Shown here piece after piece: positions 20,314 through 59,400 of a stretch of 64,000 bases of DNA. The first letter of the stretch is position 1. Each line of letters begins with the position of its first letter. The stretch lies in NCBI GenBank assembly GCA_905221615.1, contig CAJNDT010006010.1, positions 121,001 to 185,000 of the forward strand, in the 5' to 3' direction. The notes below the pieces were generated by a model that was not told where the DNA came from, did no database searches, and saw nothing but the letters and a program-made list of their open reading frames with translations. Origin of the DNA: Symbiodinium sp. CCMP2592. Lineage: Eukaryota; Sar; Dinophyceae; Suessiales; Symbiodiniaceae. The position numbers were made by a program, and so were the translations under genes.

Positions 20314-20470
20314 TAAAGATCGTTCTTCCGCTTAAGTTTGGCACGAGCCCTTCGGGCGCGTTTCTTTCGTGATCTGACATCTGATCCAGACTCTGTGGCG
20401 ACAACACCTGCATCTCCGTTGTCTCCAGCTGTGGCTGCACATCGTGAAGAAGTCCTTCGATCAAGGGTGT
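20151..20470. repeat. 160-bp perfect-looking tandem duplication inside the copia element
   Basis: 20151-20310 is repeated at 20311-20470 with a single difference seen (cattgaagat versus cattaaagat). Since 160 is not a multiple of three, the duplication shifts the reading frame. The near identity means it arose recently, after insertion. Confidence 0.93.
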
Positions 20471-21713
20471 CATCACGTAGCCGCCCGCATTCTGGTCCAT
20501 CTCGATGTCGCCCATGGTGTAGCTCATGATCCTTCACGAGATTGGCAAGAGCTTCTAGCTGGGGCCTCTGGGAACCAAAAGTCTCTGCGGCACTCACCTC
20601 CTGCGTCTTCTCATGCGGCAACTCAGTCACTTCTGACGTCTCCATGACTCCCATACCCTCGAAGAGCGGTACTGCATAATGCCCTCGTTCCGTTTCCTTA
20701 AGCTTAAGCTTAACCCCGCAACGCTTAATCACCATAACATCACTCTCCATATCCAAGTTAGCCTTCAAACCCCTCAGCAGTTCCTTGGACATAAGCAGTG
20801 GAGTTCCTGCACCACTACCCGGTAGAACAGCTGCCTTTATAGCAAGCTGTTTGTTCCCCAACTTCACTGGGATTACGACTGACTTCTCGGTACGAATTAG
20901 CCCCGCGTTACCGAACTTGAACTCATGACACTCATCAACATATCGCACCTGCAAGCCAGCTCTACCCAGGACCTCAGACATGCGCTGTAACACACTCTCA
21001 CCTATCAGAGTCCTCCTACACGCTGTGTCTGGAACCCCGTGCGTCGCGAGATCAGCCATGTATGCCTCGCTGGACGACGCAAGGTCTTCGTCTTTCTTGG
21101 AAAAACTCAAAGATCTTATTTTCAAGATCCCCTTCACTCCATCACCTCCGGCATCATGCTCCAGAGGATTCGCCAAAACTACATCGACCTGGCCGTCGCG
21201 TTCCGCCAAGAAGATCTCTAGCTTGTCGATGTCTTCCTCTTGGATGAAAAGCTCCTGGCTCAAAGCATCCAGACTGCTGCCTCCCGCCTGGTCCGTCATC
21301 ATCGCATCGCTGGTGTGGTTCGACATGGAACTCGCAGCTGTACTTCCCGTCTTCCTCTTTGGACATTCATGTTTCCAGTGACCCGTCTCATGACAGATGT
21401 GACACTTGCTTCGTGCCTTCAACTGTTCAATCTTGCCCCGCACCGTGCCTGTGAGTGTCCACTTAAAGGGAGCCGCCGACGATCTGTAGCCACGATTCAT
21501 TTTCTTCTGCTGCATCTTCTTTCTGATGTCCTGGTATGTCGTCCTGCTGTTGGATCTGGTCCGCCACGGCTTGGAAGACGTCCTCGCTGCCATCGTCGAG
21601 CTGCTGCGGCTCGGCGCCATCATCATCCACTGCCTCGAAAACCTCCTTGCTCTTAGCACTTCCAGATTTTGAGACTCCCTGTGGAAATCTAGCTTGCACA
21701 GCAGCTGCGACAT
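20313..21713 (-). pseudogene. copia nucleocapsid zinc knuckle and aspartic protease
   Basis: A 466-codon minus-strand frame. A CX2CX4HX4C knuckle (CHICHETGHWKHEC) lies at 21363-21404. A retropepsin-like region follows at about 20739-21050, with the active-site motif written DTA (GVPDTACRRTLIG, Asp codon 21027-21029) instead of the usual DSG or DTG. The later hydrophobic block AAVLPGSGAGTPLLMSKELL is typical of copia proteases. The first 60 or so residues are out of frame with gag. The frame is lost again near 20520 and ends inside a tandem duplication. Confidence 0.75.
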
Positions 21714-22219
21714 CAGTGTACTTCAACGAGCCACGCGTGTGGGTGAGGATCATGGCCTCCGCACTGGACTCCAGTTGGAGTTTCCTCAGAAGAAGCCATC
21801 CACGGACTTCCCCCGGCAACTCCGCGGAATGCTCCTGCAAACGCCTGTAAGCTGTATCCAGTCGCACACCCAGGTTCCTGTACACTGTACGTCTCATTGG
21901 CCTTGATGCTTGTCCCGAAGAAGTACTCGGTGAGATGCTTATGCAAAGCATCCTTTTGCAGCTCTTTGTGCTTTGCGTCAAGTAGCTGAAACACTTGCTC
22001 ATAGCCATCCTCCTTCGTCAGCTTCTCCAGCGACAGTGTCTCACATACCTCCTCTGCTTCACCTGCCAGGTACTCAAGGAGCTTGGCACCCCACCTGTCC
22101 TTGGTGAACGTGTTGGGAAGCGCGAGCAGCATCAGTTGCTCCTTGCGGCGCCACTTCCGATACTGTGACGGCTGCGACCCATCAAACCTCTCAAGTCTGG
22201 GTCTCTCATCCTTTTCCAC
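21463..22219 (-). pseudogene. gag: copia gag (capsid part), frameshifted
   Basis: The minus-strand frame from ATG at 22219 gives a gag-like start (RFDGSQPSQYRKWRRKEQLM, WGAKLLEYLAG, LLDAKHKELQKDALHKHL). It loses the frame near 21880. The continuation (VRLDTAYRRLQEHSAELPGE, GWLLLRKLQLESSAEAMILT) lies in the frame spanning 21463-22008. Together they resemble UBN2/retrotran_gag capsid regions of copia elements. At least one indel separates the halves. Confidence 0.75.
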
Positions 22220-22488: not shown

Positions 22489-22858
22489 CCAACCACAAAC
22501 AACCAACGACCAACAACCGACGAGAACAGCAAGAAAGAAGAATAAGAATGATAATAAGAAGAAGAATCACAACATTAATGATACCCACAACACCACCGCA
22601 AGCAACACCACCGCCACCACCAACAACAACAACACCAACAACCACCAACCACCAACCAACCACAACAACCACAACCACAACCACACCCACAACAACGCCA
22701 GCAACAAGCACAACACACACACACAACAAACTGCAAACGACGACACAACAGAACGACAAAATAGCAAACCACCTCCACCACCACCACCACCACCACCGCC
22801 ACCACCACCACCACCACCACAAACAACAACAGCAATAACAACCACAACAGCAACAACA
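22489..22858. repeat. A/C-only simple repeat (CAA, CAC, ACC mixtures), 370 bp
   Basis: The plus strand is almost purely A and C (accaccaccacc, caacaacaac). The long open frames here on both strands are artefacts of the low complexity. It separates the copia LTR from the LINE 3' end and continues on the far side of each element. Confidence 0.9.
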
Positions 22859-23413
22859 ATTATTTATTTATTGGACGCTGAGCGAGCGGGCTCTGCTCAT
22901 TGCGGGCGTGTGAGACTGCCTTTGCACCTGAACAAAGGTCTGAGAGCAGAAATGCTAAGGGCCTGGGCCTGAAAGCGCTGAAACAGGCTACCGTGAAGAG
23001 AGCTACCCTACAAGCTAACTCAAAAGCCGGTTCATGCGTCTCAGGCGTGGGTGAGAACCCTCCGTCACCCTCAGTGTGGACTATGGCGTCCCATGTCCAC
23101 GGACCGATGATTGATGAGCCGTACCCCCTCGGGACCGTCACTCAGAGTGCCTGTTGCGTGGCGTCCCACTCATGGTCACTCTCAATCAAAGGCGATGGGC
23201 CGTAAGGTCGCAAAGGTGATGCGCATGTGGAACGGCTGCTAGTGCTGTTATCTGAGGCCGCTCCGCTTTTGTGGGCAAGCAGATTGCATCGGTGAACGAT
23301 GTGGCACACCCTGGCGGGTAAGCACACTGTGCCTAATAAGGCTAACCTTATTCGTAAGAGGCGTACTCCCCTCCAGAGGCCAGGCTTGCCGGCAATGGCT
23401 TGGGGGCCTCGGA

Positions 23414-23510
23414 CAACCCCCCATTCTCGAGCCGAGAATGGGGGGTTGCAAAACCTTGATTTTTTAGGCCTCGGACAAACCCCCCTTCTCGAGCCGAGAA
23501 TGGGGGTTTG
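23414..23510. other. two tandem stem-loops in the LINE 3' region
   Basis: 23414-23448 is a perfect 15-bp stem (CAACCCCCCATTCTC) with loop GAGCC. 23476-23510 is a second 15-bp stem with one mismatch (CAAACCCCCCTTCTC) and the same GAGCC loop. Both are preceded by GCCTCGGA, so the unit of 62 bp is duplicated. Located 3' of the ORF, they could be recognised by the RT, act in RNA processing or stabilise the RNA (inference). Confidence 0.8.
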
Positions 23511-23769
23511 TAAAGCCGATTTCAGCCATTGGTCAGCTGTGTTGCTGACAGGCATTGCCTTTCTGGGAAAGCAGCATGACAGGTATAGGCCGCTATTGCA
23601 CACAAACGCTGAGTAGTGGAGCTCCGTCAGCTGTACGACTTGAGCAGCAAAACTGAACAACAGCGTTCCTGCTCCCTGCCGTGTAGGCAGGTCGGTCCCA
23701 CAGAGCCAGTAGGTCGCCCCCTTCCTGCAAGGGGAAGTAGGGGCCCCTGGCCTCAGGGGAACCCTCAGC

Positions 23770-26700
23770 TTAATCATCTGAAACTTGGACTGGCATAGGG
23801 CCAGCCTCCGCTGTGTGCGGTATTGAACCAAGTCGCACGAACAGCACATAGCAGCCGTGGCGTGCCTGCCTGAGATCTGAATCTGAGGCCTGAACCGACG
23901 GACGACCATCGTCCGTGCTGAGCCAAGGTTGATCGGGGTTGCTCCTCCAGAGGGAGCGATAATGTCCACTGTGCGGGGTGTCACCTATGTGGAAGATACA
24001 GGACTGAACCCATCCTTTCTCTAGTTGTACGGAGCCCGTCGGGGCCCACTGCGAGAGCTGAAGGGGGTGGTGCAGACCAGTGACAGCATAGCTGAGCTTG
24101 CGGCCTTCAACAAATCGCGCCACTGTGAGAACCACCAGTCGTTGCTGCCCTCGAAAGGCGGTGTGCACCGGCTGGCCAGACCACCGAGAGAGCAGCTCCT
24201 GAAGTGCATGGGATCCACCTGTCGTTGGAGCTGGCAGCAAAGCGAGCGGACCTCCCGCATCGGTGACCTCAGTAGTGTTTACATCCCTGACTTCCCAGGG
24301 TCGTGCAATCGGAAAGGCGGTAATGCCTGCAAATAAGGCCACTAGAAACTCCGAAGCATCTTGTTGTTGGCCATCATAGCGCCAAGCGGGAGTAAGATGG
24401 CGAAGCGTGAAAGAGGCAGTCAGGGTGAAAGGAGAACCAGAGACAGAATCAGCCACTTCCTGATGGAGGGAGGTGCTTGCCCCTCCGTGCTCCAGCAAGA
24501 TGCACGTCGGCACCAGGGCCGAAAGCGTTGAGTTAACATAGCAGTAGTTGGAGATGTTGCGCAGCGAGCGAGGAGCAGCGAGCGCGCCGTCCTTTGATTC
24601 TACTGTCCCTGACTTCGGTGGCAGGGGGCCTGCAGGCGTTGCCTGGCGAGTCTGGGGCGTTGCTCCAACAGCGGTGGTATCGTCCCGTGTGGGTGCGTTG
24701 CCTTGTGTCGTGCCAACCGCTGGCATGTACCTGCGTAACGGTCCGCCCTGGCAGCGGGAAAGTGCATGAACCAAGTCATAAAACAGAATCTGAAAAAGGA
24801 TCGGACATTGTGCCGGATGCTGCCTCTTATCCGTAACAGGCTTGCGGCAGCACGGGCAAGGCATGCCCTTGACAAGGGTCAGGCCTGATTTGCTGCTCTG
24901 AGTTGCAGCTGTAGCGCCATGAGCCGCCCATTCAGGTTTGTGGGCCTGCCGGATGTGAGACTTGAGCTTGGTATTGTCCGGGGTCCAGAACCCACACAGC
25001 AAGCAATGTGACATAAGGTCCTGAGACTCATCAGATCGTCCGAGCTCCACAGCCGTGTGTGTTGTCAGAGTGTCATGCAAGCGCTGCTGCCTGGGATGCA
25101 ATCTGGGCTGATGCTGCGAATCCAAGGGAGGGTGCGCCGCGTCATCCAGCTCCTGTAGCCTAGCTGGCTCCGAGCAGGCACCTGATAGCAAGTGGTCCTT
25201 TAAGCCCTTCATCTGAGGGAATTGCCTGTTGCAGGCCGCACACTTGGGGAGCCCTCCTACAGAGAGGGTGTGGGAGAAGCCTCGAGGGACATATCTGATG
25301 ACCGAGCCTGGATGCTTGCGGGCCTGGTGGGTGCGAAGACCGACCTCAGTGTCGAAGGCCTGAGCACACGTTGGGCACACGAAGGACGGGGGGGCCTCCT
25401 GCTGTGATGTGTCCTTAGAAAGTTGCTGCAGAACGTCTGCATAACTAGTAGAGAGTGCCTCCGCCTGGAGAAGCGCGCGCTGGGTTAAAGAGATGTCCCC
25501 CGCAGGAGTTTTCCGCCGTCGAGCACCTAAGCGCTTGACACGATTGGCCTGTCGCGCCTGCAGCTTACGGACAGGGTCCATGATCTCATGGGAGGCGTAG
25601 AGGTCAGCCGTGGATATGTGTGTCAGGTGCGCTGGCTTGTTCAGGACAGCTCGAATTTTGCGAGCGTGCCAAGCCCGCAACAGTTTAGCTGTCTCTAGGG
25701 TCAAGCCCACATCCACCAATCCAGAGGCTACTGTGGCCCAGACAGTGCTATGCCAAATGTGCAACCGCGATGCAGGCCCCGCCGTTCGTCTGTTGTGAAC
25801 GAAGCGGCGTACCTGCTGCAATTTCACATTGCCCTCCTGCAACCGGAACTTGAGAGTAGCCTTCTCGAAGTTGGAGTAGGAGAGCATGACGCCGAGATAC
25901 TTAAAGGACGTCACCAGCGGAAAGCCCTCGTGAGACTTGGACTCTCCCAGTCTCCACATCTTATGGCGGGTTCCGTCAGGCGCGGTGCGCCAATAAGTGT
26001 GCTTGGAGATGGCGCGTTGCGCCTGTTGGCCCTCGAGTTTGACCATAACAGTGCATTTTGCACCGTTGACAGCAAATCCATGGCGACGGACCAACTGCAA
26101 CAATTGCTCAATCAGAGCATGAGCGCGATCCAGGTCCTCCATTGAGTGGATGTCACGGTGAACCGTAAGGTCATCTGCGTAGCCCGTGAGGTAGTCCACC
26201 ACGGCTCGAACCCCAACAAGAGCTATGAGCTCCCGGAAGATGGTGCCCGTAAGCATGGAAAAAAGTGTGGGGGCAAGCTTACACCCCTGTTTAATGCCCG
26301 CAGTGGACTGGACCGTGTCCTCTTCACCCTGGGTGCGAAACGTGTAAGCACTGCCAGCATGCAATGAGGCAACTAGGTCAATGAGGTCTTGCGGGACTCC
26401 CGCTTCCTGCAGTGTGCTAAGCAAGTCTGTTCTGCTCACCATGTCAAAGGCTTGTGACAAGTCTAGTGCAAAGCAGATGCCACCTACTAGCTGGGGACGA
26501 GTTCGTCCCGAGTGAAGCTGATGCCTGGTTCGTCGGGCCTCCTGGCAGTTATTGCGTACCTGAGTGACATGACCAACGACCCTGCTCAAGGCATCTGAAA
26601 GACCGCGATGTGGCTGGTAGGCAAATTGTGGGAGACCCCGAAGATAGTCAGCCGTGTAGGGAGACAGCTGATCTCTACAAGCCCCCGCCAGGCCCTTGCC

Positions 26701-28692
26701 GTCTGGTCGAATGATGCCGAGGGGACGTAGATTGCCAGGCTTCGTGGCCGGCTTGTTAGGCTTTGGGATAAAACACAAGTCAGCATCCTTTAAGGGCGGC
26801 TGAAGTACCTCAGCAGCCGGCAATGGGCGTTGCCCCCGAGATTGCAGCGATGCTGCTAGCGCCTCTCCCGCAGCCGCCGAGCAGAGCCGCCAGGCAGCCG
26901 CCGGAGCAGAGCCTTGCGGTACCGCCTTGTGCGGTCTGATGGAGCCTATGTGCTTGGCCAGCAGACCAGCCGGGATTTCCGGCAGCGAGTCCACCTGGTG
27001 TGCGAGTGGCGGATGTCTGGCAAAGACCTGTTCCACGTGGTCTCTAAGCAGGCGGAGCTCAGAGGTAGAGTCCAACAGCAGACCATCCGGTCCCTGAAGC
27101 TGTGCCTTAGTTTGGGGTTCCCAAGGTCGGAGCTTCTTTAAGGTCTTATGTGCGATGTAGGAATCGTGTCTGGCACACGCCTCATCGACCTCAGCCTGGA
27201 AAGCTCGGTGTCGTTCCTTCTTGGCTACGTAGAGAGCCTGCTTATGCCATCGATTCAGGTCCTCCAAAGACTGATCTAGGTCGGATAAGGTGGTTATGGA
27301 GTCCTCATGCAAAGAACGAATATGAGCGACTCGACTCCACATTCGCAGCGTCGCACGGTGCTGAGCAGTTTCAGGAGCTTGCTGAGGCCGTGGTTTGGGG
27401 AAAAACAGTGCAGAGGCCTCCAGCAGTACCTGATTAACTTCATCAGGCGTGTGAGTCCGAGAGGACAGACGCTGGCCCACCCAGTCTTGCATGCGACCGG
27501 CTATTGGCAGACCTGAACGGACAGCCGTCTCTAGAGCTTCCTTATGAAAGGTCGTGCAAGGACAAGTAGGCTTTGGCAGATTCCAGTGCTGGGTGGGTCT
27601 GAGTTGAGCCAAGACTGGAAGGTGGCCGCCCCTCTTCCATTTGCCGAGCTGAAGATCCTTGCACGGCCGAGACTGCTTTGCCAGGCCCTTGGCCGAGGCT
27701 TCTGAAGTGAGCAGGAAGTCAATTTGTGATCCCTGACCATTCAGGAAGAAAGTGTGACCTGCACCACTAGACCATGTGTTAAGAGCTACCAACCGATGGG
27801 AGGAGACTAAGGCTTGGAACGATTCATCCTGCATCTGAGTTTGCTCTGGCTTGGTGCTACACTGACCTACCAGACCCTCCTGCGGGGTCAGTCGAGCATT
27901 AAAGTCTCCTGCCAAGAGAAAAGTATCTCGCGCTGGAATGGCCCGTATCGCAGCCGACAGATCGCGGAGCAGGTGTGAGCGGTCATCCTTGTTCTGCTGT
28001 GGAGTCTTCTTAGAAGACCAGGCATGTTGGTAAACCGCTAGTACATGCACACGAGCCCCAAGCCACGGGAAGATGACCTGAATGAGCCTTCCCCGGCGTT
28101 GCTCGCGCCATCTTATCTTCTGCTTGTCTATCTGCGGAGAGAGAAGAACCATGACGCCGTCCGCTCGGCTTGTGTCGTGAACAGCCGGCTGCGTGGCAGC
28201 GCCTTGCTTGGGGCGTTGCCCTGAAGTGGCTTTACCTTTAGGTGCTCGAGCAGCCCCTTTTGTGGCGGAGCTTACGCAGTGCCAGCCTTCGACATCAAAT
28301 TCTGCTGTCTCACTCCAGTGGGTTTCCTGAAGGACAAGAATGTCACAGACTGACTTGGCCTCCGTGCGAAGCCATGTCTTCACTTCTGCCCATTGTTGCA
28401 TGCCAAGGTGCCATGCATTCCAGGAAAGAACACGAAGAGACTTGCTGGCACGACCGCCTCTCGGGCGCGAGCGGAAACTGGCGGAGAAACCTGAGGGACC
28501 TGAAGGAGAAATCGTGGAGCTAGGCTGCACTGGGAGGGGGGGAGGGGAGGGGGGGGTGAGTCCACTGCGACGCAGATGTTCAGGCGTCAACGTACCATTC
28601 CGGTACGGGATGCTTTCTTGTGTTCTATGAACCTTAATGCAAGCCTTGCGAAAGGCCTTCTTGCGAATGCTCTCAAATGAATGCTGGTGCAT
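23770..28692 (-). CDS. LINE ORF: APE endonuclease, reverse transcriptase, zinc fingers and USP deubiquitinase
   Basis: 1640 residues in one frame from ATG at 28692. Residues 84-362 are an endonuclease/exonuclease/phosphatase domain (LSWNAWHLG, LQETHW, LAGDFNARL, SQIDFLLTS; the final SDH is replaced by GGH at 355-357). Residues about 640-880 are the RT (LRPLGIIRPDGKG; motif A FALDLSQAFDMV; GIKQGCKLAPTLF; YADD at 838-841). Residues 1104-1300 hold C2H2, C2HC, C2H2 and CCHC-like fingers. Residues 1376-1620 match ubiquitin-specific proteases: Cys box RNISNYCYVNSTL (C1384), QQQDASEFL and His box GDTPHSGHYRSLW (H1577). The APE-RT portion nicks target DNA and copies RNA. The USP part would be expected to remove ubiquitin, from which substrate is unknown. 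I recall LINE families with OTU-like proteases (Dualen/RandI) but not with a USP. Confidence 0.9.
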   Translation of the reverse strand: MHQHSFESIRKKAFRKACIKVHRTQESIPYRNGTLTPEHLRRSGLTPPSPPPLPVQPSSTISPSGPSGFSASFRSRPRGGRASKSLRVLSWNAWHLGMQQWAEVKTWLRTEAKSVCDILVLQETHWSETAEFDVEGWHCVSSATKGAARAPKGKATSGQRPKQGAATQPAVHDTSRADGVMVLLSPQIDKQKIRWREQRRGRLIQVIFPWLGARVHVLAVYQHAWSSKKTPQQNKDDRSHLLRDLSAAIRAIPARDTFLLAGDFNARLTPQEGLVGQCSTKPEQTQMQDESFQALVSSHRLVALNTWSSGAGHTFFLNGQGSQIDFLLTSEASAKGLAKQSRPCKDLQLGKWKRGGHLPVLAQLRPTQHWNLPKPTCPCTTFHKEALETAVRSGLPIAGRMQDWVGQRLSSRTHTPDEVNQVLLEASALFFPKPRPQQAPETAQHRATLRMWSRVAHIRSLHEDSITTLSDLDQSLEDLNRWHKQALYVAKKERHRAFQAEVDEACARHDSYIAHKTLKKLRPWEPQTKAQLQGPDGLLLDSTSELRLLRDHVEQVFARHPPLAHQVDSLPEIPAGLLAKHIGSIRPHKAVPQGSAPAAAWRLCSAAAGEALAASLQSRGQRPLPAAEVLQPPLKDADLCFIPKPNKPATKPGNLRPLGIIRPDGKGLAGACRDQLSPYTADYLRGLPQFAYQPHRGLSDALSRVVGHVTQVRNNCQEARRTRHQLHSGRTRPQLVGGICFALDLSQAFDMVSRTDLLSTLQEAGVPQDLIDLVASLHAGSAYTFRTQGEEDTVQSTAGIKQGCKLAPTLFSMLTGTIFRELIALVGVRAVVDYLTGYADDLTVHRDIHSMEDLDRAHALIEQLLQLVRRHGFAVNGAKCTVMVKLEGQQAQRAISKHTYWRTAPDGTRHKMWRLGESKSHEGFPLVTSFKYLGVMLSYSNFEKATLKFRLQEGNVKLQQVRRFVHNRRTAGPASRLHIWHSTVWATVASGLVDVGLTLETAKLLRAWHARKIRAVLNKPAHLTHISTADLYASHEIMDPVRKLQARQANRVKRLGARRRKTPAGDISLTQRALLQAEALSTSYADVLQQLSKDTSQQEAPPSFVCPTCAQAFDTEVGLRTHQARKHPGSVIRYVPRGFSHTLSVGGLPKCAACNRQFPQMKGLKDHLLSGACSEPARLQELDDAAHPPLDSQHQPRLHPRQQRLHDTLTTHTAVELGRSDESQDLMSHCLLCGFWTPDNTKLKSHIRQAHKPEWAAHGATAATQSSKSGLTLVKGMPCPCCRKPVTDKRQHPAQCPILFQILFYDLVHALSRCQGGPLRRYMPAVGTTQGNAPTRDDTTAVGATPQTRQATPAGPLPPKSGTVESKDGALAAPRSLRNISNYCYVNSTLSALVPTCILLEHGGASTSLHQEVADSVSGSPFTLTASFTLRHLTPAWRYDGQQQDASEFLVALFAGITAFPIARPWEVRDVNTTEVTDAGGPLALLPAPTTGGSHALQELLSRWSGQPVHTAFRGQQRLVVLTVARFVEGRKLSYAVTGLHHPLQLSQWAPTGSVQLEKGWVQSCIFHIGDTPHSGHYRSLWRSNPDQPWLSTDDGRPSVQASDSDLRQARHGCYVLFVRLGSIPHTAEAGPMPVQVSDD
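23833..24567 (-). other. ubiquitin-specific protease (peptidase C19) domain at the LINE C-terminus
   Basis: Residues 1376-1620. The Cys box NISNYCYVNSTLSAL compares with the family pattern GLxNxGNTCYxNSxLQ. QQQDASEFL matches QQDAxEFL. The His box DTPHSGHYRSL matches GxxxxGHYxxY, and W..DD before the end fits the third catalytic position (W-x-x-x-D/N-D). At about 245 residues it is compact for a USP. It lies in frame with the RT, with no stop between them. Confidence 0.85.
24793..25383 (-). other. four zinc-finger-like motifs after the RT
   Basis: C1106/C1109/H1122/H1127 (classical C2H2), C1151/C1154/H1167/C1173, C1230/C1233/H1246/H1251 (C2H2) and a Cys-rich CPCCRKPVTDKRQHPAQC. Such fingers in LINEs can bind the target DNA or the element RNA. 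Their number here is high for an APE-type element. Confidence 0.75.
26053..26775 (-). other. reverse transcriptase core of the LINE ORF
   Basis: Residues 640-880 contain the RT motifs in order. The metal-binding Asp residues are at 744 (FALDLSQAFD) and 840-841 (YADD). The GxxQGCxLAPxLF block is typical of LINE and group II type reverse transcriptases. Confidence 0.92.
27607..28443 (-). other. APE-like endonuclease domain of the LINE ORF
   Basis: Residues 84-362. Asn and Glu (LSWNAWH, LQETHW), GDFNAR and ID (SQIDFLL) match the EEP superfamily. The usual Ser-Asp-His triad at the end reads Gly-Gly-His (KRGGHLPV), so one catalytic Asp seems missing or displaced. An insertion rich in Lys, Ala and Gln sits at residues 142-172. 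Confidence 0.85.
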
Positions 28693-28730
28693 TGGCGATT
28701 GCGCCGTCCGCTAGTTTCGCCGGAAAGAGA

Positions 28731-28790
28731 GAACTCGAACCGACTCCTTTCACCCTGCGGAAAAGGTGAAAACCACTACCGCTTACCTCA
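28731..28790 (-). promoter_or_regulatory. tRNA-like A/B-box segment in the LINE leader
   Basis: The minus strand reads GCGGTAGTGG (A-box-like, 28773-28782), then a stem TTTCACC/GGTGAAA (28748-28771), then GGTTCGAGTTC (28731-28741). The last matches the B-box consensus GGTTCGANTCC at ten of eleven positions. The spacing is that of a tRNA, but the anticodon-like loop is 10 nt and the acceptor stem does not pair clearly. It is therefore tRNA-derived or pol III-promoter-like rather than a tRNA gene. Confidence 0.4.
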
Positions 28791-28992
28791 TGCCAAGGTT
28801 GTATAACTGCAGACAGAGGTCCGGGAATTGGGACCCGGTAGATCACAGCGACACGCGGCTCCGGGAACAGCTATGGCTCAGTAAGAGGACGGTCCCTTAA
28901 GCTTCGCAGAAGGGGCACGTTGCGAGCCTCTAGCGTTGGTACCCAGAGCCTTGTTAGCAAAGCTACACAGCCTGCTGTGATCCATAGCGGCT

Positions 28993-29121
28993 ACAGCAAC
29001 AACAACAACAACCGCAACAACAACAGCAACAACAACACAGCGAGAGCAACGGAAACAGAAACTGCAACGACAACTACAGCGTAATAGTAGTCGCAGAAGA
29101 AGCGGCAGAAGTAGTAGTGGC

Positions 29122-54705: not shown

Positions 54706-55020
54706 GGTCGCGCGCGGATTCCTTCAACTTTTCGCCGATTATTCCGTCAACCACTGCCCGCGGATTCTGTCAACCCGCCAACGCGGATGCCTTCAACCTC
54801 AAAACCTGATTCCTTCAACCTCAGAACGCAGATTCACTCAACCACGTCCCCGGGAATGATTCCTTCAATCCAAACAACGCAGATTCACTCAACCACGTCC
54901 CCGGGAATGATTCCTTCAACCCAAACAACTGCTTCGTTCAACCTATACAGAAAAAGTCGCTCCAACTACAGACACGCGTGCTACCCCAACCACGAGGACT
55001 TTCTCAACCACAAACACGCG
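54706..55020 (+). repeat. left inverted arm: TTCCTTCAACC minisatellite
   Basis: About ten units of the CGGATTCCTTCAACC type, roughly 20-28 bp apart. They include a clean 50-bp duplication (gcagattcactcaaccacgt at about 54829 and 54881). Confidence 0.75.
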
Positions 55021-55033
55021 GATTCTTGTGCCC

Positions 55034-55720
55034 CGGGTTTGTTTTTCCTACAAAAACAAACTCTGGGGGGAGGATTTTGTTTTCACTAGGAAAACAAACT
55101 CCGAAGGCGGGGTGCAGGGGAGTTTGTTTTTTCCTACAGAAAACAAACTCTGGGGGGAGGGCTTTGTTTTTCCTACAAAAAACAAACTTTGGGGGATGGC
55201 TTTGTGTTTCCTACAGAAAACAAACCCTGGGGGGGAGGGGTTCGTTTTCACTAGGAAAAACAAACTCCGAAAGGGGGGGGGGTCCAGGCGAGCTGGTTTT
55301 TTCCGCAAAAAGAAACAAACACTGGGAGGAGGGGTTGGGTTTGTTTCGCCGGAAGAAAACAAACGTTTGCGGATCATCTTTGGTTGGGTCACGAAGAGCC
55401 AGGTTGGGGAGGAGAGGAAAACAAACCAACTTGAAACTCAGTCTCGACGAGTTTGTTTCAGCGGGTACAAACAAACCCTGACCAGGTGAGTTTGTTTCAG
55501 CGGTGGAAAAAAACTCCTATGGGAGAAGTTTGTTTGTTTCAGTGATGCTAGCGGGAGTGGTTTGGGCGGCGCGGGGGTAGAGGAGGATTTGTTTTTCCTA
55601 CAAAAACAAACTCTGGGGGGAGGGTTTTGTGTTTCCTACAGAAAACAAACTCTGGGGGGAACGGTTTGTTGGTCCAAGGAAAACACACTCCAAACAAACT
55701 CCGAGGGAAGATGAAAACAC
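55034..55720. repeat. hairpin array TTTGTTTTTcctacAAAAACAAA
   Basis: Ten or so units, most of which can fold as a 9-bp stem (TTTGTTTTT/AAAAACAAA) with loop cctac or cctaca, separated by ctctggggggagg or ctccgaaggg. The Phe/Lys/Thr/Gly-rich frames on both strands (for example 54978-55481) are products of this array. Confidence 0.85.
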
Positions 55721-57589: not shown

Positions 57590-57826
57590 AATGCTTAGAT
57601 TGCAGTGTAGTGTTGACGGAAGCGGGGGGGGCGGAGTTGACGGAATGAGTTGATGGAAGCGGGCAATGGGGGTTGACAGACTCGGGAGTTGAGGGAAGCG
57701 GGCGATGGGGGTTGAAAGAATCGGCACGATCTGAGTTGAGGGAAGCGGGGAACATGGTTGAAGGAAGCGCGGTTGACGAATCTTGGTTGACGGAACCGCG
57801 CGAAGTTGAGGAATAAGGCTTGTACG
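57590..57826 (-). repeat. right inverted arm: GGTTGAAGGAAGCG minisatellite
   Basis: Units such as gttgacggaagcgggg, gttgagggaagcgggcgatggggg and ggttgaaggaagcgcgg. Their complement matches the left arm units. Confidence 0.75.
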
Positions 57827-57849
57827 GAGCTACGTCACCATCTATACCA

Positions 57850-59400
57850 CAAAGACAGCAATGTCAATTGCAAGACACCACACGGGCATGAAGAGAAACA
57901 AACTGATCACATCGTCCCAAATCAGACCCTGCCTTCCGCTGGCTCCGCGGCAATGCCCTGGCACTGCCCTGGCCCTAAAAGCGGAGCCGACACCCGCTGG
58001 CTTTGCAGAGACAGGGCGCTGCAACCGGGCCTGAATAGGCATGACTAGTACTACGTCGGCCGGCGGGGGGACAAGAAGTCCCTGCTGTAGTGGAGCTTGC
58101 TGTCCCAAGCATGTGCAGCAAGACTTTCTCACCCGCTGCGACCATCTTCAGTGCAAAAACCCAGAAAGAGGTCATGAAAGGCGCATGCGCTCAAGCTGTG
58201 ACTCGGCGAGCGGAAGCGGATACAGTTGTTGTGAAAACCTTCTGCTCTTACTGATATATATATATATATATATATACCGCGGGCCGCACGTGAAACTCAA
58301 GATCGGAGGATTCTGCATGTGCCGTGGATACGCAGCATGATGCAGCATGGCTGCAGGAGCGGAAAGCCATGCTCGAATCTACACGAGTGGCCCGATTGGC
58401 AGTCTGAACAGTTCAGCATATTCGGGCTTGCAGGATTCTCTACTGGTTCTTGTGGTGCGACTTTCTCTTGATGCCGAGCTCATCTCAAACGGCATGCTCC
58501 GGTAGCCTGACTCTATCTGACTCCATCTGCTCTCGCTTTCCATGTCCATTCCGCGCTTCAACTGCTCTGTTCTGTTCAAGACCTTCAGCTTAGTATGACA
58601 TGACTTCGTAGTGCACTTGCTTGAGATAGCTGCTGAAACTGTGCCAAGGAAGTGAATAGCGTTTTTTTTTTTTTTCTCTCTCTCTCTCTCTTTCTTTCAC
58701 AAGGCTCTCTCTCTCTCTCTCTGCAGAGAGGATATCCTTCAATTTGAATACTGCACAGCCCCCAGCCGCGTCACCACGAATTTTCTACCAGTAGTGGGCC
58801 AGAAAAGGGTGCCGGCATGTCAGTCTTGCGCGGCCCAGTAGAGCCACCGGCTCAACACAGCAGACCTGGTGAGGCACTCGGTCGATACACATGGACTGAG
58901 GCTTGCAGTGCGGAACGTTTCGGGCTGCCAGGTCGTTCAAACCACTTTCAACAAAACCTTAAACCTAGCCCGCAGGTTTTGACTACTGATTAACAGGCGA
59001 TGGATGAAGAAATTATAACATAGCTAACGGCCCAACTCCGCTGATGTTCTTTAGATGCCGAAAGGGTTACTGTGGACAGGGTTGCAACCCGTTTACTTCT
59101 TGTCCACCTGATCAGAAGAATAAACCCCACGTCCTCGACCATGCCGAGCCCAGCAAGCCCCAACATGCACACTGAAATCACCAACCGAAGATGGATACCA
59201 AGTGAGTCGAAGCTTAAAATGAAGCTTCCTGGCGGCCGGCTAGCTAGCCTATAGGGCCTAAGGGCATCCCATGCATGGTGCCGAGTCGTAGGCACCCCCC
59301 CCCCACTCCCCATGGTATGCAAGGCCTCTCGTCCCAACAAACAGTCACACATCATTGTCGACGTTATTCACGTATGCCCCCCGCCTCCCGCCTTAGCAAA
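57850..59400. other. no gene recognised
   Basis: Contains (TA)11 at about 58253-58276 and a T16 run with (CT)n tracts at 58662-58722. A further 600 bp has only short frames. Confidence 0.5.

Follow-up and report, generated by a model that had tools for sequence, protein, structure and literature searches.

The analysed window, a stretch of 64,000 nucleotides from Symbiodinium sp. CCMP2592, carries on its minus strand a LINE element with a single long reading frame. The frame (23770-28710) runs for 1646 codons from stop to stop, with the first ATG at codon 7 (position 28692), and the 1640 codons and the coordinates given by a first-pass annotation of this DNA proved right when counted from that ATG. 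It joins an APE endonuclease, a reverse transcriptase (RT) and four zinc fingers to a ubiquitin-specific protease (USP, family C19) at the C-terminus. The annotation had proposed this order and an HMM search as its check; the search found Exo_endo_phos, RVT_1 and UCH in the translated ORF, and together with a finger motif scan it confirmed the order endonuclease-RT-fingers-USP. The features, by position in the window, are:

28994..29037, minus strand: (TTG)n-like microsatellite on the 5' side, approximate limits; 28 of 28 5' matches are TTG-like
22860..28993, minus strand: LINE element of ~6.1 kb, 5' TAGCCGCTATGG, 3' ..CCAATAAATAAATAA; ends common to other copies
23770..28710, minus strand: single ORF of 1646 codons, ATG at 28692
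27697..28428, minus strand: APE-type endonuclease, residues 95-338 (Pfam Exo_endo_phos, 2.2e-13)
25885..26769, minus strand: reverse transcriptase, residues 648-942 (Pfam RVT_1, 7.2e-23)
24805..25377, minus strand: four zinc-finger motifs, residues 1112-1302 (motif scan)
24571..24795, minus strand: faster-evolving linker, residues 1306-1380 (dN/dS 0.32)
23821..24570, minus strand: predicted USP (C19) domain, residues 1381-1630 (profile match 2.5e-34; Pfam UCH)
24541..24543, minus strand: codon of catalytic Cys1390, present in all 16 LINE USPs that were read
23962..23964, minus strand: codon of catalytic His1583, present in all 16 LINE USPs that were read
23908..23910, minus strand: codon of catalytic Asp1601, present in all 16 LINE USPs that were read
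22822..22859, minus strand: (TTG)n-like repeat on the 3' side, approximate limits; 24 of 24 3' matches (21 loci) are TTG-like

The element has the makeup of an APE-type LINE, with the APE endonuclease upstream of the RT in one frame (Pfam) and dispersed copies that share common ends. When the window protein was compared with PDB sequences, R2 and LINE-1 chains were matched for the RT. The Cys/His finger motifs, whose first residues are 1112, 1157, 1236 and 1285, lie between the RT and the USP; no C2H2 model rose above the Pfam cut-off in the search of the window protein, and the related proteins P0002-P0004 contain four finger motifs each, as in the window protein. The dinoflagellate spliced leader (dinoSL) was not found in the window at ≤3 mismatches; its sequence had 429 exact occurrences in the own genome (searched as 1.1 Gb in 5383 contigs), and the reversed control had 0, which by itself makes a dinoflagellate host very probable. 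Elsewhere in the window, a 469-codon frame at 20316-21722 (minus strand) gave a weak zinc-knuckle match (0.0054, below the cut-off) and is perhaps part of another retroelement.

We investigated the insertion sites by comparing the ends and flanks of the copies. The copies start at the common TAGCCGCTATGG and end at CCAATAA followed by A-rich bases, and the flanks differ among most of them. The 28 5' matches represent ~26 distinct sites: L012 and L014 have the same 5' flank and probably are one insertion that was duplicated, and the 5' match in L023 is that of the neighboring copy L013, which follows L023 in tandem on one contig, L023 being without its own 5' start. None of 580 random 30-base pieces from inside the element was TTG-like. 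We infer that new copies insert into (TTG)n microsatellites. Alternatively, the (TTG)n could be a tail made by the RT and not the target site, and plant RTE LINEs are described as having (TTG)n repeats at the 3' end (PMC3747384); the repeat on the 5' side, however, favors the target-site reading. With (TTG)n on both sides, any target-site duplications would be hidden.

Pfam UCH matched the window protein at residues 1570-1624 (8.6e-6; score 26.0 bits, cut-off 23.9), and since this match covers only 55 residues of the USP, further profile tests were carried out. A profile of 13 other LINE USPs, with the window excluded, matched the window USP at 2.5e-34 (best of 1000 shuffles, 0.69), and a profile of four Helitron-type and two other USPs matched it at 1.5e-12 (best of 1000 shuffles, 0.94). 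A profile built from the window USP and three other LINE USPs had USP35 as its best match among solved structures, at 4.7e-17; for this profile there were 103 distinct sequences at E ≤ 0.01, and the best 60 of the 103 were all ubiquitin carboxyl-terminal hydrolases. The window protein alone retrieved no USP from the PDB sequences at E ≤ 0.1, and a single-sequence AlphaFold model of the window USP had a pLDDT of 33, too low to be of use for judging the fold.

The first-pass annotation had based its USP call on a Cys box, a QQDA-EFL box and a His box, and the catalytic Cys1390, His1583 and Asp1601 were indeed found in the window USP, together with the Q.D box. All 16 LINE USPs read keep these three residues as well as Q1449 and D1451 of the Q.D box, with the retention being partly by choice in the 13 of the 16 that came from the UCH search; the window, L058 and L059 are the three from outside the UCH list, L044 and L050 are near copies, and L052 was excluded since it equals L040. 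W1472, R1475, D1484, G1486 and W1510 are also common to all 16 and, in a 20-row alignment, are absent from six Helitron-type or other USPs, except for R1475 in one. One or two CxxC pairs were found in each of the four Helitron-type USPs, one each in L042 and L050, and none in the other 14 of the 16 LINE USPs. Ubiquitin binding by the LINE USPs is not assured, because most of them are without the CxxC pairs of the Helitron-type USPs. These results indicate, at the level of sequence, that the C-terminal domain is a USP (C19) with intact-looking catalytic residues.

To the window protein the own genome gave 29 matching rows, the window being one of them and L036 and L037 being parts of one place. 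Sixteen of the 29 rows (window included) are stop-free from residue 7 or earlier to residue 1636 or later, seven hold stops and six end early; the matches of L020, L030, L032, L034 and L035 end in assembly N. Over the aligned stretch, 27 of the 28 non-window rows are ≥99.49% identical to the window copy, and L031, a sister subfamily with 92.2% identity to the window copy, has no stop over residues 1-1609. Across 28 rows, the six active-site codons showed one substitution, at D1451 in L033 (a row with gaps), some or all of these codons being missing for want of sequence in L030, L032, L034, L035 and L037. The window LINE family is one that has recently multiplied. The first-pass annotation had named the lack of the USP segment from other copies as the finding that would count against it; other copies carry the USP, 16 rows (window included) being open through residue 1636, and this rules out a private fusion or an assembly artefact. 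No relatives were found in viral contigs.

The selection acting on the domains was estimated from the window copy and L031, the one subfamily pair on which the whole-protein dN/dS rests. The ratio was 0.048 for the endonuclease, 0.061 for the RT, 0.040 for the fingers, 0.086 (bootstrap 0.038-0.164) for the USP and 0.32 (bootstrap 0.13-0.71) for the linker. For the USP of L038 against that of L042 (77% identical) it was 0.15, and three pairs were not used for the claim (L038-L043, saturated; L044-L050, 0.42 from 13 changes; L040-L052, one change). The codon changes indicate purifying selection on the USP, similar in strength to the constraint on the other enzyme domains and tighter than on the linker. 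Neutral evolution with loss of the Cys and His, which the annotation had considered as the other outcome against it, is contradicted by the low USP ratio and by the active site kept in all 16 LINE USPs.

A Pfam UCH search of the genome gave at least 148 places, many in frames of 1500-3400 codons; the window is absent from the places listed. Three of the families, L038, L039 and L040, were read and contain endonuclease, RT, four finger motifs and UCH, the L039 endonuclease being below the cut-off, with its start falling outside the stretch read. Their UCH matches cover nearly the full profile (2.3e-20, 5.7e-17 and 1.6e-14, respectively), and identity among the window, L038, L039 and L040 families is 26-34% in the endonuclease, 27-33% in the RT and 29-32% in the USP. 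In all, RT and USP were read together in seven families besides that of the window, L038, L039 and L040 among them, with an RT identity of 26-51%, and USP identity between families is 26-39%. Twelve further USP places were fetched, of which 10 are LINE-type and two Helitron-type by similarity, and a same-group RT lies upstream of the USP in all four LINE-type places looked at. A USP was likewise found downstream of the RT (34% and 38% identical RTs; UCH 2.8e-11 and 1.9e-12) in two of two places that were chosen by RT and long frame and do not lie beside a listed UCH place. The search for further copies suggested by the annotation, run here in the own genome, hence uncovered the architecture in many families, more widely than had been thought.

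The pairing of RT and UCH was counted among the places listed (at least 148), an RT row being scored as paired if a listed UCH place followed it at ≤6 kb on its own strand. For L038 RT rows, such a place was present in 27 of 48 at ≥45% identity and in 0 of 50 below, and for L040 RT rows in 5 of 27 and 7 of 71, respectively; when UCH places upstream or on the opposite strand were counted as a control, 1 of 196 rows had one. Altogether, 39 of the at least 148 listed UCH places were assigned to an upstream RT. A missing listed place was not read as absence of the USP, because both unlisted places that were fetched carry UCH. On contig C5201, an RVT_1 place (54729-55496) lies 2.1 kb before a UCH place (57601-58167) on the same strand, as seen by eye, and this pair is perhaps another LINE lineage with a USP. 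Pairs of UCH places whose starts are 2961 bases apart were also noticed among the places listed, on contigs C994 (three pairs), C2844 (two) and C3007 (one), the first frame having 593-594 codons and the second 1822-1837 (1085 in one pair).

Co-divergence of RT and USP over eight families gave a Mantel r of 0.38 (1937 of 40320 permutations as high) and, without L053, of 0.08 (1882 of 5040). An unrooted USP tree was built from 20 rows, comprising 14 LINE, four Helitron-type and two "host" rows, the latter so called solely because no element was seen around them; L002, L003 and L006, being partial, were excluded, and the window row was flagged as a long branch. A branch with support 98/93 sets the LINE USPs apart, and another, at 95/86, does the same for the Helitron-type USPs. 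The tree fits a single capture of the USP by LINEs that would have been kept since, separate from the capture by Helitrons.

In L038, L039 and L040, a +1-frame ORF of 337-445 codons overlaps the stretch between the fingers and the USP:

L038:3449-4459, plus strand: overprinted ORF (protein X), +1 frame
L039:1833-2939, minus strand: overprinted ORF (protein X), +1 frame
L040:4316-5650, plus strand: overprinted ORF (protein X), +1 frame

The three X proteins are homologous (22-28% identity, E 1e-11 to 1e-28), and the main-frame linkers of the same three elements gave no significant match to each other. Pieces of X were also found in L005, L042, L043, L044, L048, L050, L058 and L059; the scan had no match in L045, L046 and L051-L057, where the stretches cover little or none of the position of X, so that this result is not evidence that X is absent; L052, for one, is a member of the X-carrying L040 family. 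X was not found in the window element (best tblastn E of 3.4 in the element; best profile E of 0.38 over the whole window), and protein X had no Pfam match (best E of 0.17). When the X codons were shuffled among synonyms 2000 times, the main frame was open in a fraction of ≤0.0005 for L038, L039 and L040 and, in the parts read, in 15 of 2000 for L058 and 2 of 2000 for L059, whereas the reverse shuffle, with the main frame kept, left X open at 0.0055, 0.0015 and 0.0235 in L038, L039 and L040; all five cases had been picked with long frames in view, which biases these figures. The RT-USP fusion thus appears to have been kept open over another coding sequence, and this favors production of the USP as part of a fusion protein. 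Protein X is perhaps an ORF1-like (RNA-binding) protein. At L040:1-700 (plus strand), the open frame extends upstream, with no Pfam match, into what resembles, to our eye, the last part of a copia-type polyprotein, as would result from in-frame insertion of the LINE into a copia element.

We give an even chance to the USP being an active deubiquitinase that acts in cis on the complex of its own element. This reading is drawn by analogy, because the VTD domains of Helitrons have been shown to cleave ubiquitin chains: zebrafish Helitron VTD domains, when expressed, cleave K48- and K63-linked ubiquitin, and their authors suggest proteasome protection of transposition proteins (passages on VTD in PMC9741609). 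As part of the protein that would bind the RNA of the element, the USP would strip host-attached ubiquitin, most likely degradative chains, from the element's own RNA-protein complex or from its surroundings at the target, and the complex would then last long enough for target-primed reverse transcription. Nothing in the element sequence names a USP substrate. Other LINEs manage without a protease. Being fused to an endonuclease/RT and to fingers that would sit at the target, the USP could instead deubiquitinate chromatin at the target site or repair factors (histones, PCNA or FANCD2) and aid integration or repair; for transposases with OTU or Ulp1, Bao et al. suggest that these domains may serve in the activation of repair factors (PMC2836005). 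The occurrence of OTU, VTD, Ulp1 and USP in unrelated elements, however, fits a general substrate better. Dinoflagellate chromatin is also poor in nucleosomes, and we regard action on chromatin or repair as unlikely.

The USPs diverge between families while their catalytic core stays fixed, a pattern that could fit an arms race of the kind expected if the USP deubiquitinated a host restriction factor or E3 ligase in trans as a counter-defense. There is no sign of such a race, because dN/dS is low across the USP in the window family and the RT diverges as much between families, and we find counter-defense quite unlikely. The C-terminal position in a large polyprotein, and an RGG just before the endonuclease in the window protein and in L031, would suit a maturation protease that cuts its own polyprotein. 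Pfam results, however, contain no ubiquitin domain, and the RGG-like motifs of P0001-P0004, examined by eye as ubiquitin-tail self-cleavage sites, are at no common place, which makes self-processing improbable. Stops in seven of the 29 rows might be expected of a functionless passenger, but purifying selection and the kept catalytic residues rule out a neutral one, and we give the passenger reading hardly any credence.

Few LINEs have a ubiquitin-family protease, and in those known to us it is OTU or Ulp1. Dualen/RandI LINEs carry an OTU-like cysteine protease. The window element resembles them as a LINE with an APE and a cysteine protease and differs in having a USP, with no restriction-like endonuclease (RLE) in the general Pfam result; neither OTU nor Ulp1 had a Pfam match in the window protein at E ≤ 1, and the protease matches UCH. 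Dualen has both APE and RLE, and the NeSL and Utopia-1_TSP LINEs have a Ulp1-like cysteine protease, as described in sections of PMC4640811. The NeSL/Utopia proteins are thus alike in joining to a LINE protein a cysteine protease from a class with ubiquitin-like conjugates as substrates, but theirs is Ulp1-like and N-terminal and goes with a restriction-like endonuclease, whereas that of the window element is a USP, is C-terminal and goes with an APE. Helitrons and Helentrons with OTU or VTD likewise have a deubiquitinase-type domain in the replication protein of a mobile element (PMC9741609, in part); unlike the LINE with its USP, they are DNA transposons with other protease families. The discussion of PMC2836005 mentions one Trichomonas protein, XP_001314237.1, with transposase_11 and peptidase C19, and the text also describes Ginger1 with OTU or Ulp1; the Trichomonas protein shares the pairing of C19 with an element enzyme, a transposase, but both it and Ginger1 are DNA transposons, not LINEs.

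No LINE with a USP was named in the titles and opening abstracts of the open-access literature searched, and the USP class and its C-terminal position in a LINE are new relative to the relevant portions of PMC4640811, PMC9741609, PMC2836005, PMC3747384 and PMC6338049. The suggestion in the first-pass annotation that the fusion is a new architecture therefore stands for LINEs within that literature; it does not extend to C19 in mobile elements at large, for which the DNA transposase in the cited part of PMC2836005 is a precedent.

Because distantly related families in the same genome keep the USP, it probably helps these elements to survive in the cell. A joint reading, which we hold tentatively and at rather less than an even chance, is that of a species-rich dinoflagellate LINE lineage built on a fused USP, in which deubiquitination would be required for retrotransposition, with one ancient capture, many members with an overprinted +1 protein that is perhaps RNA-binding (ORF1-like), and a separate capture of a USP by Helitrons. 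If this is true, the separate Helitron and LINE captures would suggest that dinoflagellates restrain mobile elements through ubiquitin. The LINE fusion, with its USP under selection and kept across families of divergent RTs, makes, together with the OTU, VTD, Ulp1 and C19 captures by unrelated elements, a testable case for ubiquitination as a common brake on mobile elements, and the fused USP offers a cis-acting enzyme for testing it in a group with genomes rich in such elements.

The Helitron-type place at L041:2-4849 (plus strand) encodes a Rep-helicase (P0005) with an N-terminal USP (UCH 3.3e-24; Helitron_like_N 6.4e-7); L008, L047 and L049 were called Helitron-type from USP similarity alone. 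The L041 USP is of the same protease family and from the same genome as the LINE USPs, but it is N-terminal and falls on the Helitron-type branch of the tree and not on that of the LINEs.
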